From: Salinibacter pepae
GTDB lineage: Bacteria > Bacteroidota > Rhodothermia > Rhodothermales > Salinibacteraceae
Length of the DNA: 64,000 nucleotides
NCBI RefSeq assembly: GCF_947077775.1
Contig: NZ_CAMTTE010000001.1
Span: forward strand, 2,508,501-2,572,500
Reading direction: 5' to 3'
Part shown: positions 44,336 to 50,684 of the stretch, one piece after another
Numbering within the stretch: the first letter of the stretch is position 1
Layout of the letters: every line of letters begins with the position of its first letter
The notes under the pieces: model-generated
The model's database searches: none
Told to the model about the DNA's origin: nothing
What the model saw: only the letters and a program-made list of their open reading frames with translations
Made by a program: the position numbers and the translations under genes

Positions 44336-44347
44336 GACAACAAACCT

Positions 44348-44369
44348 CCGCCCGGAGGCTTCCGGGCGG
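44348..44369. terminator. GC-rich hairpin between convergent genes
   Basis: CCGCCCGGA pairs with TCCGGGCGG around GGCT. It lies 12 bases after the metallohydrolase stop and about 50 from the convergent gene's stop. It has no clear T-run, so it is a weak or bidirectional terminator candidate. Confidence 0.5.
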
Positions 44370-44420
44370 GGGCGGTGCTTGTTCGGGCCGATGTGAACGT
44401 GGAGAACATCCGTGCTGGAG

Positions 44421-47099
44421 TTACCGCACGACGGTAATCTGCTCGGTCGTAGCGAAGTCCTCGCCGGTGGCCCGCAGGAAGTAGGTCCCGCTCGTAAAGC
44501 CGGTTGACGAGACATCCAACCGGAGGCGCTGCAATTCCTGCGCCGGCAGTGGGCCGTCGTGTAGCGTGGCCACCCGGCGGCCGAGCAAATCGTAGAGGCG
44601 TACGCTCACGTTCTGCCGCTCCTTGACCGCCAGCTCGACGCTGGCTCTCTGCTGGACCGGATTCGGATACGTGGAGAGCCGGTAGGCCTCGTCCATCGCG
44701 ATCTCTGCCGTCACCGGTTTCGTATAGCGCCGAACGTTGCTCGTCTCGCTGTTACCGACTGCTCTGAGGGGGGAACCGGTATCCTGCGGCAGGCCGACGC
44801 GGAACTGGTGCGTGCCAATCTCCAATTCGTCGGTGCGGTAGCGATAGGTCACAGCTTGTGACGAATCGGTGCTCATTGAGTCGCCGGCCGGCACGGTGCC
44901 GAGCGTAGACCACTCAGCCGTTGAATCGGCGCGGTGCTGGAGGGCAAATTCAGAGGGAAGGTCCGACTCGCCTACCGCCTTCCAACTCACGTGGATGGAC
45001 CCGTTGGTGTGCGTCTCCGCTCGGACGTTGCCAAGAACGAAGGATCCCTCGCTGGCTGCCAGACAGATTCGGTTTAGCCCGACGGCATTACAGCCTCCAC
45101 CCCCGCCGCCTCCACCCCCATTATTGTTGATGGTCACTTTCGTTTGTGCTGAGGCGGTCTCACCGTTCTTGGAGGCCTCTACCTTAATGTCGACGATTAT
45201 GGTACTGGAGATATAGTCCTGGCCCCAACTGACCGAGGGACCAGAGCCGATTTGATACCATCCGCTTCCCTGGTCGACAGACCATGTGTATGACGCGCCG
45301 TCGCGGGAGGTGTAGGCGGTCCAGGTCCCCTGCTCGCCCTCGTCCAGGTACGTTGGGCCGGAGAGGGAGGCTTCTAAAGGCGGAGGTGGTGGAGGACCTT
45401 CTGTACCTACCGCTGTGTAGGCAATGTTAAAATTTTTAGAAACTTTCGGAATCCGCTGGTCCTTCGCGCACCGTCTGCCCCAGCTATCGAAGAAGTCAGC
45501 CTCCCAGTAATACCCGCGAATCGTCAGTCCGCGTCCGTCGGCATCAACCACACGGACCCCTTCAATGAGAGGATTGAAGTACGATACCTGACCGATTCGG
45601 CTGTTGTACCCGTTGCTCTTCCCCCAGCGGACCCATACGTCAGGAGTGCTCGAGAACGTTTGAGAGTAGGGCACGCGGGCCTTGAATTCGTAGAGATATC
45701 CCTGAGCGACGGGGCAGTTCTGGAAACCAACGGGGGTAAAGTTCCAGTATCGGTTTCCTTTCAGGTCGACGGCACTGCGGATCTTCTTTTTGGAGATCAC
45801 AGACTTCACAGATTGCCGACTGCGCTGCACGTCATTGTTGCGAACAAAGGATAGAGCCGCATCTGCATCGATGGCACCGGCACCTGTATAGTCGTCCCGT
45901 CCGGGGGAGCCTGCGTCGCGGGCCGTTCGCTTCAGAATTTCCTCAATGTCCTCGCCGGTGAGGGTGGGCATCTCGGCTTTGAGGAGACCGGAGACCCCTG
46001 CACCGATGGAGGCGGAAGCGGCAGTGGTAGTGAATTCGGTGTCGTACTGGTCCGACCCGGTGCCGGAGATCCCTACCGTTTCTTCGGCGAAGGCCGATAC
46101 GTCTACGTAAGCGGCCGGTCGGGTGCTGTCCCATTTGACAAGCGTGTCATCAGCGTCCTGATCTACTCCACCGACTGTCACCGCGTACGGGTCAAACATA
46201 CCGGGGAGGTGCCGGGGGGGGATATCGCCGTCTCCATCGAGATTCCCCGCAGGTGTCACTACGACCCCACCGTCTTTCGCTACCGCAAATCCAACTTCGT
46301 CCCGAAACAGGGATCCGGGATCGGGAGGCGTCGTACAGCTGCCAAACCACCCCCCACAAATTGCTTGTCCGATACTTTTAATCGTGTTCCAGGCGGCAGT
46401 CGCTAAGGTTTTGTATGGGTCCGGGTCATCTAAGTCGTCGGGATCTCGATCAAACAAGTCCATGGACTCATCAGGATCCGGCGGTCCCTCCAAGGTTGGA
46501 TCGTAGTCGGCAGGGTCACCGCTGGGAAGTCCATATGAGAAAAGATGAACGTCGACTCCGTTGCTTCGGCCCTTACTGAGTTGATCGCTGAGCCGATAGA
46601 GGTTCAAGTAGTAGGTCTCCTGCGTTCCATCGGGCCGCTCGAAGGTAACCGTGTCTTCTTCGTCGCCGCTACATCGAGAGTCACTTCCACAGGTGCTGTT
46701 TTCCGTCAGCACGCTATAGGACTGCAGAGTAGCGGCCCGGTCGATGCCGGTCATGCCAACATTGTTGTTCGTGCTGGCGCCGACAATGCCGGCCATTTCG
46801 CTGGCGATGTCGAGTTCGGGCTCCAGAAGCGTCCCAACCGGGGACGCCAGGCGGCTGGAGGAAAGGTCCTCGTGGTTTTGGATGAAGCCCGTCTGGGAGT
46901 AGACGCCGATTTTCACGTTTGAGGAGCCGGTCGTATAACTCCAGGCTTGGTCCACCCGGTGCACGTCGAAGAGGTACTGCTGCTGGTCGACGAGAGGATC
47001 GTTTGTCTGGTTTTGAGCAAGAAGAGCGCTCGGCGCTGCGAGCAGGCCGAGGAGGATTGTGAAGAAAAATGCGCGCGAGAGTGTATGTAGAGCGTTCAT
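44421..47099 (-). CDS. T9SS-sorted catalytically dead subtilisin-fold surface protein
   Basis: This 892-residue exported protein has a signal peptide (about 1-29, ALLAQ). Residues about 45-420 follow the subtilase S8 pattern, but the triad is lost: the Asp position is Ser68 (IGVYSQTGF), the His position Glu101 (ASEMAGIVGAS), and the Ser position Ala363 (ASASIGAGVSGLL); the oxyanion Asn286 (TPAGN) remains. Then come a poorly defined region, an Ig/PKD-like domain (about 576-658), a glycine run (661-669), a fibronectin-like domain (about 690-790), and a C-terminal type IX secretion sorting domain (STYPNPVQQRASVEL to the end, with VRLYDLLGRRVATL). The sorting domain implies export through the outer membrane and surface attachment or release. 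It likely binds rather than cleaves. It is the last of four minus-strand envelope genes. Confidence 0.85.
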   Translation of the reverse strand: MNALHTLSRAFFFTILLGLLAAPSALLAQNQTNDPLVDQQQYLFDVHRVDQAWSYTTGSSNVKIGVYSQTGFIQNHEDLSSSRLASPVGTLLEPELDIASEMAGIVGASTNNNVGMTGIDRAATLQSYSVLTENSTCGSDSRCSGDEEDTVTFERPDGTQETYYLNLYRLSDQLSKGRSNGVDVHLFSYGLPSGDPADYDPTLEGPPDPDESMDLFDRDPDDLDDPDPYKTLATAAWNTIKSIGQAICGGWFGSCTTPPDPGSLFRDEVGFAVAKDGGVVVTPAGNLDGDGDIPPRHLPGMFDPYAVTVGGVDQDADDTLVKWDSTRPAAYVDVSAFAEETVGISGTGSDQYDTEFTTTAASASIGAGVSGLLKAEMPTLTGEDIEEILKRTARDAGSPGRDDYTGAGAIDADAALSFVRNNDVQRSRQSVKSVISKKKIRSAVDLKGNRYWNFTPVGFQNCPVAQGYLYEFKARVPYSQTFSSTPDVWVRWGKSNGYNSRIGQVSYFNPLIEGVRVVDADGRGLTIRGYYWEADFFDSWGRRCAKDQRIPKVSKNFNIAYTAVGTEGPPPPPPLEASLSGPTYLDEGEQGTWTAYTSRDGASYTWSVDQGSGWYQIGSGPSVSWGQDYISSTIIVDIKVEASKNGETASAQTKVTINNNGGGGGGGGGCNAVGLNRICLAASEGSFVLGNVRAETHTNGSIHVSWKAVGESDLPSEFALQHRADSTAEWSTLGTVPAGDSMSTDSSQAVTYRYRTDELEIGTHQFRVGLPQDTGSPLRAVGNSETSNVRRYTKPVTAEIAMDEAYRLSTYPNPVQQRASVELAVKERQNVSVRLYDLLGRRVATLHDGPLPAQELQRLRLDVSSTGFTSGTYFLRATGEDFATTEQITVVR

Positions 47100-47223
47100 C
47101 GTGGCCCTCTTGGTCTGATGAAAAAGGAACAAGAGGGACTGGGTTTGAGTGCCGCACACGCAAACGAGGGGCGCCTCCCGGCGATGAGCCGGAAGCCAGT
47201 CCCGTGTGCCCCGTTTGCGGTTG

Positions 47224-47258
47224 AAGTCCCTGGCGTGCCGGCAGCACGTCAGGGACTT
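47224..47258 (-). terminator. Strong hairpin after the first lipoprotein gene
   Basis: AAGTCCCTG (47224-47232) and CAGGGACTT (47250-47258) pair over nine bases, with CGTGC/GCACG continuing inside. It lies 24 bases past the stop of the 356-residue lipoprotein gene. No T-run follows in that direction, so it may attenuate or protect rather than fully terminate before the subtilase-like gene. Confidence 0.5.
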
Positions 47259-47281
47259 ATTTGTTGATTATAGAACGGCAA

Positions 47282-48352
47282 TCACCTCCGTGGCGTCAGT
47301 TTGTTGAGCGATTGCGTCGAGAGGGTGGGAAAGTCGGGCACTGAATCGGGGAGGGTCGGCCAGAGCGGCTCGGCTTCCATCGTCTCCAACTCGAAACGAA
47401 AGGGCACGTAGCGGGCGCCCTGGCCTTGATTTACATCCCGGCGGAAAATGAAGTACGAACCATTAGATCCGCACCGGGGAATATCTCCTCCTAGTGTTGT
47501 GATTTGTCGAGCATTCTCACCGCGAGATTCCATTATGAATAGCTGTTTTGCGTTCTGAACCTCTCTGGCTTGGAAAATATAATTCGTTCCTGGACATGCC
47601 ACTGGGGTGTCGACCAGATCGAGCGAGTCTTCTGGAAAATCAGTAATCCACTGCCAAGTGCTATCGGCAAAGTTATACCGAGCGAAATTGCCGCTTGGCG
47701 GGCTGTTATCGCGAAGATATTTTTTTCCAATCGCATACTCGTGGTTTTTCCCGAAAGAAGCTGATTCAAAAAGTTCTGCTAGTGGACCGATAGTCGTCGA
47801 GTCAGAGGTATCAACAATGTAGAGTCCTCGTGGAAATGGCTGCTGATAGGCCTTCTGGTGAGCGAAGACCAAAAGTCGATGGCCATCCTCGAACCACCCA
47901 GAGCTACTCACGACGGGAAAAGAAAGTCGCTGATGGTTTTTGCCAGTCCACTGTCTCGTCTCCATCGTCTCCAAATCAATCGTGTAGACGTAAAAATCAA
48001 TTCCAGTAGCAACTGTAACTGCGAGTCTATCCTCAGTCGGATGCCAGTCAGCACCTAAAACATTGACACCGATGAGACGGGCATTTTCCCCGTTCCGGTC
48101 AACGATCCAGAGCTGATTTTGTGGATCGGATGGTTCACCAGGTGTTCGTTCCCGAATGAGTGCAACTTGATCTCCATTCGGGCTCGGAAATAGCTCTGGA
48201 ATGTGTTCAGTATTCGGCAGCGGATCCCCGCCGTACTCACCAGAATCAAAGATTGGCTCTTTGGTGGGCGGTTCGGTGGGCCCGGTGCAGGCGAGTGCCA
48301 CCAAGAATGTTGCGAGCAGGGCGAGGCCGAAGGTCGAGAGGAGGCGAGGCAT
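47282..48352 (-). CDS. Beta-propeller lipoprotein (PD40/TolB-like repeats), copy 1
   Basis: This 356-residue lipoprotein has a signal peptide ending in the lipobox VALAC with the acylated Cys at 22. The mature part opens with a Thr/Pro-rich linker, then reads as a six- or seven-bladed propeller of PD40 type (FPSPNGDQVALIRERTPG, NQLWIVDRNGENARLIG, WHPTEDRLAVTV, QITTLGGDIPRCGSNGSYFIFRRD). Such lipoproteins dock other envelope proteins; a specific partner is not known. It is a close tandem paralog of the next gene upstream and ends with LSTQSLNKLTPRR. Confidence 0.85.
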   Translation of the reverse strand: MPRLLSTFGLALLATFLVALACTGPTEPPTKEPIFDSGEYGGDPLPNTEHIPELFPSPNGDQVALIRERTPGEPSDPQNQLWIVDRNGENARLIGVNVLGADWHPTEDRLAVTVATGIDFYVYTIDLETMETRQWTGKNHQRLSFPVVSSSGWFEDGHRLLVFAHQKAYQQPFPRGLYIVDTSDSTTIGPLAELFESASFGKNHEYAIGKKYLRDNSPPSGNFARYNFADSTWQWITDFPEDSLDLVDTPVACPGTNYIFQAREVQNAKQLFIMESRGENARQITTLGGDIPRCGSNGSYFIFRRDVNQGQGARYVPFRFELETMEAEPLWPTLPDSVPDFPTLSTQSLNKLTPRR

Positions 48353-49472
48353 CGGATAGCACGGAAAGTTGAAAGTCTGCGGAGATGTCTACCGAGGGAG
48401 CGTAATCGTTTTTTTTTTCGAGCGTTTGCGACGAGAGCGGGGGAAAGTCGGGAACCGAATCGGGAAGGGCGGGCCAGAGGGGATTATCTTCCATCGTGGC
48501 CATGTCGAAGCGAAAGGGGACGTAGCGGGCACCTTCGTTCCGGTTTACGTCACGACGGAAGACGAAATACGAGCCGCCGTAGCTCCACCGCGGATTGTCG
48601 CCCCCTAGTTCTGTGATTTGCCGAACCTTTTCCCCGCGGTGATTCATGAAGAAAAGTTGAGGGGCATTTTTGACCTTCCGGCTCTGAACGAGCGTCGTAC
48701 CGGTCGGACTTGGCACAGGCGGGTCGACGTGCCGGATGAACGAGTCTTTCTGAAGGTCCGAAATCCAATGCCAAGTGCTATCGGCGAAATTATAGCGAAT
48801 GAAATTGCCGCTCAGTGGATTATCGTTCTGGAGATATTTTCGTCCTGTGGCATACCTGTCCTTGTTGCCGAGAAAGGCAGATTGCATAAATTCAAGAAGA
48901 GGTCCAGTAGTCGTGCTGTCCTGAGTGTCGATGATGTAGGTGCCCCGGGAGAATGGCTGCTGGTAGGCCTCCTGAGCTACGGATACCAAGAGGCGGTTTC
49001 CATCATTGAACCATACTGGATTGTTCACAACCGGAAATGACAGCCGCTGACTGTCTTTTCCAGTCCACTGTGTGGCTTCTCCAGTTTCCAAATCAATCGT
49101 GTACGTATAGACGTCAATTCCACTCACAACTGTGACTGCCAGTGACCTCCCGTTCGGCGACCAATCAACAGTTCCAGTATTCACGGAGATGAGGCGTGGA
49201 TTGCAGCCATCTCGATCCACAATCCAGAGTTGATTCCGCGGGTTGGACGGCTGACCGGGCGTGCGCTTGCGAACAAGGGCATAGCGGTCCCCACTCGGGC
49301 TCGGCTTCACGTTCGAGAGGTGTTCGGTGCCCGTCAGAGGGTCGCCGCCATACGCGCCCTCTTCGAAGGTCGGCTCTTCCTTTTTTGGTTCGGTAGGTGT
49401 CGAGCAGGCCGCGGCGATGACCACGGCGCCGACGACAGTGCTTGCGAGGATGGGGAGCAAAAAACGTCGCAT
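48246..49472 (-). CDS. Beta-propeller lipoprotein, copy 2, apparent 3' frameshift
   Basis: This is a paralog of the downstream lipoprotein, alike along its whole length (WIVDRDGCNPRLI, WTGKDSQRLSFPVV, GGSYFVFRRDVNRNEGARYVPFRF). It starts at the ATG at 49472 with a lipobox IAAAC. Copy 1 ends LSTQSLNKLTPRR, whereas here the frame reads LSSQTLEKKNDYAP and runs another ~45 unrelated residues, overlapping copy 1 by 107 bases. The break is exactly at a run of ten A residues (48409-48418). With nine A the product would end LEKKTITLPR and stop at 48389, matching copy 1 and leaving a normal 36-base gap. So this is either a recent frameshift, a phase-variable run, a slippage site or a sequencing error. 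Confidence 0.82.
   Translation of the reverse strand: MRRFLLPILASTVVGAVVIAAACSTPTEPKKEEPTFEEGAYGGDPLTGTEHLSNVKPSPSGDRYALVRKRTPGQPSNPRNQLWIVDRDGCNPRLISVNTGTVDWSPNGRSLAVTVVSGIDVYTYTIDLETGEATQWTGKDSQRLSFPVVNNPVWFNDGNRLLVSVAQEAYQQPFSRGTYIIDTQDSTTTGPLLEFMQSAFLGNKDRYATGRKYLQNDNPLSGNFIRYNFADSTWHWISDLQKDSFIRHVDPPVPSPTGTTLVQSRKVKNAPQLFFMNHRGEKVRQITELGGDNPRWSYGGSYFVFRRDVNRNEGARYVPFRFDMATMEDNPLWPALPDSVPDFPPLSSQTLEKKNDYAPSVDISADFQLSVLSDASPPLDLRPRPARNILGGTRLHRAHRTAHQRANL
48409..48418 (-). repeat. A10 homopolymer run in a lipoprotein gene
   Basis: Ten consecutive A residues on the coding strand lie at the last codons of the copy-2 lipoprotein. Loss of one A restores a C terminus like that of the paralog. 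Runs of this length are rare in GC-rich coding DNA and slip readily in replication, transcription or sequencing. Confidence 0.85.
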
Positions 49473-49609
49473 GGCAAAACTATCATCGAAGAAACACAAG
49501 CAAGAAAACGAAGCGTGAATCGGACCGGTCTTCGGAACCGCCTTCCTTCGAAGACCCGCTTGGGAGCCCCTCCTTCCTTAACAACTGTCTGCTTACAGCT
49601 GAACTGGGT

Positions 49610-50416
49610 TCAAAAGGTAAGACCGACTGTTGCCATGATGCCCCGATTCTGGGCGGAGAACCGCAGGCCGGGAACGTCGGACAACCCGAGACCGAACCGG
49701 GCATCCACGGTCACCGTCCCTGCCTCAGTCTCGACATCCGCACCGGCCCCGAAGTCCAGGCTAATGGCATTTCCCCCCAGATCATCGCCGACGTTGATTC
49801 CCTGCGACTCTCCTCCGAGTGTGACGTCGGCTGCCGTGTTGACGCTGAATCCAAGGGTCGGCCCCGCGAGCACGTGAGGGACGACCGCTCCAATTTCCGG
49901 AAGCTCGGCCCGAGCGAGAATCGGGACCTCCACGTAATCGGCTTTGCTCGTGATGCTCCCCGATTCTGGCTCCCCATCGGAGTTCGGAACGGTGAACGTG
50001 GTCTGATCGCCCTTCTGGATGTATCGCACTCCGGGCTGAAGGGCCAGTAGCCCGCCAAAGTCGGCAACGATAAACCCGCCCACCATGAACCCCGTCCGCC
50101 GTCCCGCATCTGTTTCGGAGACGGTCGGGACCCCCCGCAGGAGGGTCTGAATTGTTTCGGCCTCGTCGCCCCCAAAGGTGGCGAAGTTGAGGCCAACCCT
50201 AATGCCGGGCTGGAGGTCCACAGGACTGGACTGGGCACCGGTCGAGGCGTCGGCGCGCCGAAGGGATTCGATTGTCTGTGCGTCTCGGCGGCCATCAAGA
50301 GCGGAGGCAAAGAGGGAGGTGTGCGTTTGTCCGGACGCGGGGCTGGGCAAAAACTGCAGGCAGAGACCCACCAGAAGAACGAATCGGCAGCTCAAGCGGA
50401 GCCTAAGAGCAGGCAT
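49610..50416 (-). CDS. PorT-like outer-membrane beta-barrel protein
   Basis: This 268-residue exported protein starts at the ATG at 50416 with a signal peptide (CRFVLLVGLCLQFLPSPASG). About 60 polar residues follow, then a barrel of alternating strands (IRVGLNFATFGGDEAE, GFMVGGFIVADFGGLLALQPGVRYIQKG, DYVEVPILARAELP, PHVLAGPTLGFSVN, ARFGLGLSDVP) ending in a C-terminal Phe (GIMATVGLTF). This is the pattern of small Bacteroidetes outer-membrane proteins of the PorT/OmpA-barrel type. Function is not defined by the fold. It heads the minus-strand envelope cluster. Confidence 0.8.
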   Translation of the reverse strand: MPALRLRLSCRFVLLVGLCLQFLPSPASGQTHTSLFASALDGRRDAQTIESLRRADASTGAQSSPVDLQPGIRVGLNFATFGGDEAETIQTLLRGVPTVSETDAGRRTGFMVGGFIVADFGGLLALQPGVRYIQKGDQTTFTVPNSDGEPESGSITSKADYVEVPILARAELPEIGAVVPHVLAGPTLGFSVNTAADVTLGGESQGINVGDDLGGNAISLDFGAGADVETEAGTVTVDARFGLGLSDVPGLRFSAQNRGIMATVGLTF

Positions 50417-50684
50417 CGGGCTACTGAATTGAGGGCAAACGACACGAATCGTCGCGCGGCAGAACCAAGTGAGCGGAGTGATCGGATAGATGTGCAACTC
50501 GGCCTCGCACGTCACAATTACTTACAACGTAACCCCCCCCTAAAAGAATTGCAAATGTATGGTTCGTTCGCAACAATCCATCGCGCCGACTGTCGATCTC
50601 AGCCCCGCGGCGGGATCGGCACCCGACAGAACAAGCCGCGAACCTTTCCAGGCCCTCGGCAATTGATGGGGGCGAGCATTTTTC

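Follow-up and report, generated by a model that had tools for sequence, protein, structure and literature searches.

The window analysed here, the whole 64,000-nucleotide stretch from the genome of the salt-loving bacterium Salinibacter pepae, encodes a subtilase with a T9SS sorting domain that has lost its catalytic triad; judged from its relatives, it belongs to a conserved family of subtilases that are catalytically dead and is not one decayed copy. Seen in context, this pseudosubtilase is real, conserved and more interesting than a lone mutated protein would be; the functions named for it here are putative. The explanation to which we give about an even chance is that it serves as a non-proteolytic, T9SS-exported binding or scaffold protein complexed with a propeller lipoprotein, as the dead branch of a two-gene module. 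The gene for that lipoprotein, a neighbour of the pseudosubtilase gene in all nine family members, is the main clue and was absent from an earlier sequence-only reading of this DNA, which had proposed a peptide-binding pseudoprotease on the cell surface. Coordinates of all features are collected in Table 1.

Table 1. Features of the pseudosubtilase gene and its neighbours, in window coordinates.
Feature	Position	Strand	Basis
Pseudosubtilase gene, T9SS type A cargo, 892 aa	44421..47099	-	Pfam Peptidase_S8 and Por_Secre_tail above cut-off; full reading frame
Signal peptide, aa 1-28, no propeptide before S8 domain	47016..47099	-	Read from sequence
Catalytically dead S8 domain, aa 29-420	45840..47015	-	Pfam, alignment with active subtilases, AF2 model, structural alignment
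Catalytic Asp position, Ser68	46896..46898	-	Alignment with 21 active subtilases
Catalytic His position (first H of HGTHVAG), Ile98	46806..46808	-	Alignment with 21 active subtilases
Glu101, at second, non-catalytic His of HGTHVAG, three residues past Ile98	46797..46799	-	Alignment
Oxyanion Asn286, kept in window protein	46242..46244	-	Alignment with 21 active subtilases
Catalytic Ser position, Ala360	46020..46022	-	Alignment with 21 active subtilases
dom2, aa 421-570	45390..45839	-	Kept in family and in active subtilases with same propeller neighbour
T9SS type A sorting domain, aa 806-892	44424..44684	-	Pfam PF18962 and TIGR04183, above cut-off
Lipoprotein A, divergent TolB/PD40-type propeller, directly upstream of pseudosubtilase	47282..48352	-	Family profile vs. 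solved TolB 9e-14; adjacent in 9/9
Lipoprotein B, paralogue of A, 60% identical	48246..49499	-	
Outer-membrane beta-barrel protein, head of cassette	49610..50515	-	Pfam OMP_b-brl_2 7.6e-15

The pseudosubtilase reading frame runs without a defect from an ATG at 47099 to a stop at 44421, confirming the gene's coordinates and strand. Its product consists, in order, of a signal peptide, the S8 domain (Pfam Peptidase_S8, E 3.9e-11, above the cut-off), a second domain referred to here as dom2, a proline hinge, stretches resembling PKD and Fn3 domains and, at the C-terminus, a T9SS sorting domain of type A (Por_Secre_tail, 2e-7, also above the cut-off). The PKD-like and Fn3-like parts had been named in the sequence-only reading and are plausible, but neither has a Pfam match. 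The sorting domain that it had likewise named stands, and the source genome (3.63 Mb in three contigs, 99.97% complete) also encodes the SprA/Sov translocon of the system (1686 bits). Several further sorting-domain tails were found across this genome, and the region from about residue 690 on, which covers the Fn3-like part and the sorting domain, recurs in other T9SS proteins encoded there. With a signal peptide, as read from the sequence, and a C-terminal type A sorting domain, the protein has the features of type A cargo, and we infer that it is exported by T9SS and displayed at the outer surface. Only about six residues separate the signal peptide from the conserved NDPL start of the domain, so the N-terminal propeptide of S8 subtilases is missing; an active homologue in genome G023 has about 170 residues ahead of its S8 domain, with a weak prodomain match.

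Triad positions were assigned by aligning the pseudosubtilase with 21 active subtilases, the catalytic Ser being read as the last residue of the GTS motif. The Asp-His-Ser triad of active S8 subtilases (MEROPS S8) is absent from the window protein, which has Ser, Ile and Ala at the three positions, and no displaced but intact triad emerged from the alignment. The sequence-only reading had given Asp to Ser, His to Glu and Ser to Ala; the first and last of these agree with the alignment, but the Glu lies at the second His of the HGTHVAG motif, which is not catalytic. Its further statement that the oxyanion Asn remains is true of the window protein, an exception in its family: in the eight others Asp or Glu takes the place of the Asn. 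The observation behind that reading is thus real and, with one residue corrected, partly confirmed. The alternative that only this copy is mutated while its homologues are active does not hold, as all nine members are mutated: the Asp position holds Ser in all members but one, which has Gly, the His position is Ile, Phe, Tyr, Val or Ala and always non-basic, and the Ser position is Ala in five and Tyr, Thr or Asn in one each, with Ser kept only in G131. Asp and His have therefore been lost in 9/9 members and Ser in 8/9. Another subtilase (own2, G000:C1:219683) seemed in the alignment to lack its His and was considered as a second pseudoprotease, but was rejected, its His motif, THGAG, having been shifted by one.

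The replacements around the old site are patterned: eight of the nine members have Ser for Asp, eight have an acidic residue in place of the oxyanion Asn, as given above, and most have Glu where the second His would be. Such a pattern might be expected if the protein had remained an enzyme whose active site is rearranged or of another kind. We regard this as very improbable, given that the old His is never replaced by a basic residue and that the only His which all members share in the S8 domain, His76 in HEDL, does not vary in the active subtilases either; no family-specific catalytic His is in sight within the domain. To our knowledge, no subtilase works with such a rearranged active site.

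The claim that the subtilase fold is kept is supported by Pfam, by modeling and by structural alignment. AlphaFold2 (AF2) with a 40-sequence alignment gave a model with a pLDDT of 80.9 and a pTM of 0.85; 32 of the aligned sequences were active subtilases, which help the fold along, so the support that the model lends is not independent of them. A 7-sequence, family-only alignment reached a pLDDT of only 46, and that model was left unused. The best structural match of the 40-sequence model is mirolase (Z 37.3, 296 residues, 2.7 A), and further matches include fervidolysin and other subtilases. Taken with the Pfam match, the model supports an S8 fold for the window protein.

The search for relatives covered sets of 27 genomes from the family, 114 from the order, 244 from the class and 394 from the phylum, the last being a sample. 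Nine of the 244 class genomes carry the pseudosubtilase family (E <=1e-121), the next match (1.7e-23) being the active subtilase of G023, and the phylum sample contained no member beyond these nine. They form one clade (support 100/99), in which G005 and G131 make up a branch apart from the seven core members. A scan of genome contigs yielded a single locus, on the same contig as G002. No relatives were found in plasmid and phage collections, and in PADLOC the pseudosubtilase, lipoprotein A and the beta-barrel protein matched no defence family. The T9SS sorting domain is present in eight of the nine members, while the ninth, from G131, reads as a lipoprotein. This most distant pseudosubtilase (L051:7394-9322), the one that retains the catalytic Ser, lacks a T9SS tail and carries a signal like that of lipoproteins (LFGC), and an active subtilase is encoded two genes upstream of it. 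In G061, the pseudosubtilase and a neighbouring metallopeptidase-like T9SS protein (L031:7078-9438, L031:11480-12574) are seemingly identical over their C-terminal Fn3-like part and sorting domain, which suggests tail swapping or gene conversion.

Selection has acted on the fold without the triad: the S8 domain of G000 is 61-62% identical to those of G002 and G061, as against 37-38% at fourfold-degenerate sites, where synonymous divergence is near saturation, so dN/dS values are rough. Three of the nine copies (G059, G239, G208) carry in-frame stops.

In the window, the pseudosubtilase is part of a cassette with two propeller lipoproteins and a beta-barrel protein, located between an MBL-fold gene and aroQ. 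This site is variable in the genus (44336-50684, a 6.1-kb cassette in the window). In the closest species there, G015 and G012 (96% and 92% identical at the MBL gene), MBL and aroQ are directly adjacent and the cassette is absent; G011 has at the same site a beta-barrel gene, one lipoprotein adjoining it and only a C-terminal remnant of the pseudosubtilase. A tail remnant of the cassette is found in G021, and pseudosubtilase remnants are also present in G068 and at a second G064 locus. Because of these stops, remnants and cassette-free species, the family must be seen as accessory, patchy and repeatedly lost. Directly downstream of the pseudosubtilase in G002 lie a tyrosine integrase and a Tn3-family transposase (L026:8640-12585); the cassette may be mobile, which would fit these neighbours. 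The window's intergenic stretch from lipoprotein A to the pseudosubtilase (47100-47281) is predicted to fold into strong hairpins (raw folding energy -80 kcal/mol over 182 nt), among them a near-perfect inverted repeat just past the lipoprotein A stop; an attenuator or a terminator is possible.

The same stops, remnants and empty sites could mark a decaying relic that lost catalysis, gained no new function and is disappearing copy by copy. We consider this quite unlikely. The loss of Asp and His is a single old one common to nine genera, since which the fold, dom2, the sorting domain and the reading frame have been kept in six of the nine members; the S8 identity persists at near-saturated synonymous sites, and the replacements at the old site are patterned rather than random.

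Evidence that the pseudosubtilase has a partner comes from its neighbourhood. A propeller lipoprotein gene is its same-strand neighbour in all nine members, upstream in eight and downstream in G208. The nine partner proteins are about 335-370 aa long with an invariant Cys; their family profile matches solved TolB propellers, and divergent relatives match Pfam PD40. In the window, the lipoprotein B frame overlaps the start of lipoprotein A by 107 bases (48246-48352) and its tail is unlike those of its relatives; the true end of lipoprotein B may be disturbed.

The propeller is not confined to dead subtilases. Active subtilases with a dom2 have a propeller gene just upstream in 12 of the 14 cases with assessable neighbourhoods (in G023 with one short reading frame in between), in contrast to none of 18 control regions with 21 subtilases without dom2. 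The dom2 subtilases from further class genomes have Asp-His-Ser intact wherever the motifs are readable. Subtilases with dom2 do not form a single S8 clade (rejected, p-AU 2.5e-5), and the tree points to no single active ancestor. dom2 itself is without a confident match to any known family in Pfam or PDB. In four of the nine members it has recurrent but sub-threshold Pfam matches to H-type lectins (about 17 bits against a threshold of 24), and with no PDB sequence match the assignment to H-type lectins was kept as a lead only; by sequence, a glycan-binding role of dom2 is possible.

Propeller and subtilase trees have the same three-way split, into the seven core pseudoproteases, G005 with G131, and the active ones. 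Subtilase and propeller distances are correlated (Mantel r 0.79, 0/5000 permutations), also within the pseudoproteases (r 0.89, 2/5000), and joint operon inheritance alone would likewise raise such correlations. In G061 and G064, each subtilase is paired with its own propeller type, while in G005 identities do not separate the types. One exception is G023, which has a core-type propeller beside an active-type propeller and active subtilase, showing that a pseudosubtilase is not required for the presence of a core-type propeller, of which G011, G063, G065 and G068 give further cases. Propellers of the pseudoprotease type with no pseudosubtilase, or only a remnant of one, beside them were found at six loci (G011, two in G063, G065, G068 and the second G064 locus; L075, L076, L077, L078, L079, L081).

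This arrangement invites another explanation, in which the propeller serves active T9SS subtilases as a dedicated inhibitor or as a guard of their folding, and the pseudoprotease, as a decoy or regulator, titrates the inhibitor or modulates an active sibling. In the potempin-KLIKK pairs of Tannerella forsythia, lipoproteins encoded directly upstream of T9SS proteases inhibit them (PMC7296668), and mirolase, the best structural match here, was matched in its potempin complex. The gene order is also the same in the active dom2 subtilases, and potential siblings exist, since a dom2 profile found both a dead and an active pair in G005, G061 and G064 and the G131 pseudosubtilase has its active neighbour. 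A decoy or regulator nevertheless seems unlikely to us: the same profile found no other dom2 protein in the window genome, hence no obvious sibling to regulate; the two propellers of G061 and of G064 differ in type, making cross-pair titration improbable; and the propeller is kept where its neighbour offers nothing to inhibit. Inhibition alone cannot explain a partner that was kept after catalysis was lost, which favours complex formation, anchoring or signalling.

In the non-proteolytic complex that we prefer, the pseudosubtilase would be exported by T9SS, displayed at the outer surface and work there in binding or as a scaffold instead of as an enzyme. Its subtilase fold and dom2 would form a complex with the co-encoded propeller lipoprotein, which might anchor the pseudosubtilase or pass on ligand occupancy; candidate ligands are a glycan bound by dom2 or a peptide held in the former cleft. 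The sequence-only reading is partly supported: a pseudoprotease with a T9SS sorting domain stands, and peptide binding and surface location are candidate features. The family belongs with an active module of propeller lipoprotein and T9SS subtilase found across the class, catalysis being lost and the partnership kept. A more specific version, which we put forward tentatively and at rather less than even chances, is that the pseudoproteases and their co-evolved propellers are a surface receptor or capture complex that evolved stepwise from the active module; the Ser retained in G131 and the divergence of the propeller along with the inactivated enzyme point in this direction. Given the three stop-bearing copies and the propellers without an intact pseudosubtilase, such a complex cannot be essential.

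A dead clade, its active relatives and their common propeller partner can be compared directly, which makes the change from an exported protease to a binding protein testable, as well as the role of the propeller lipoprotein once no activity is left to control. Recognition of the propeller-subtilase module would also aid annotation of T9SS cargo. In the literature searched, subtilase pseudoproteases were few (C. difficile spore proteins and one Plasmodium protein), nothing coupling "pseudoprotease" with type IX secretion was found, and a narrow query returned no propeller-subtilase module; the wider module is apparently undescribed.

Known systems resemble the window family in part. NCBIfam NF052323, a T9SS-dependent M6-like inactivated metalloprotease, has the same kind of T9SS tail on a different protease fold, so that only the sorting tail matches. 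The lipoproteins resemble TolB of Tol-Pal in their profile match to solved propellers (9e-14) and in PD40, but as TolB equivalogs they score no more than 18 and 45 bits, where the cut-off is 343, and they are linked to T9SS subtilases. CspC and CspA of Clostridioides difficile are subtilase pseudoproteases with sensing and regulatory roles that work as a heterodimer (PMC6636752, PMC12880746), which shows that dead subtilases can serve in sensing as a pair. They have in common with the window family a subtilase fold with triad residues lost (as defined in PMC6636752), but lack two triad residues and keep a prodomain and a jelly-roll insert, whereas the window family lacks a propeptide and has a domain behind the protease, a T9SS export signal and a propeller lipoprotein neighbour. 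No jelly-roll insert of their type is predicted in the AF2 model, in which the insertion at residues 195-260 has low confidence. The potempin-KLIKK pairs are alike in having a lipoprotein gene directly before a T9SS protease gene (here 47282-48352 before 47099), and mirolase of the mirolase-potempin C pair is the solved fold closest to the model. Potempins, though, are small inhibitors of active proteases, whereas here a propeller of about 350 aa adjoins a protease that has lost its triad.
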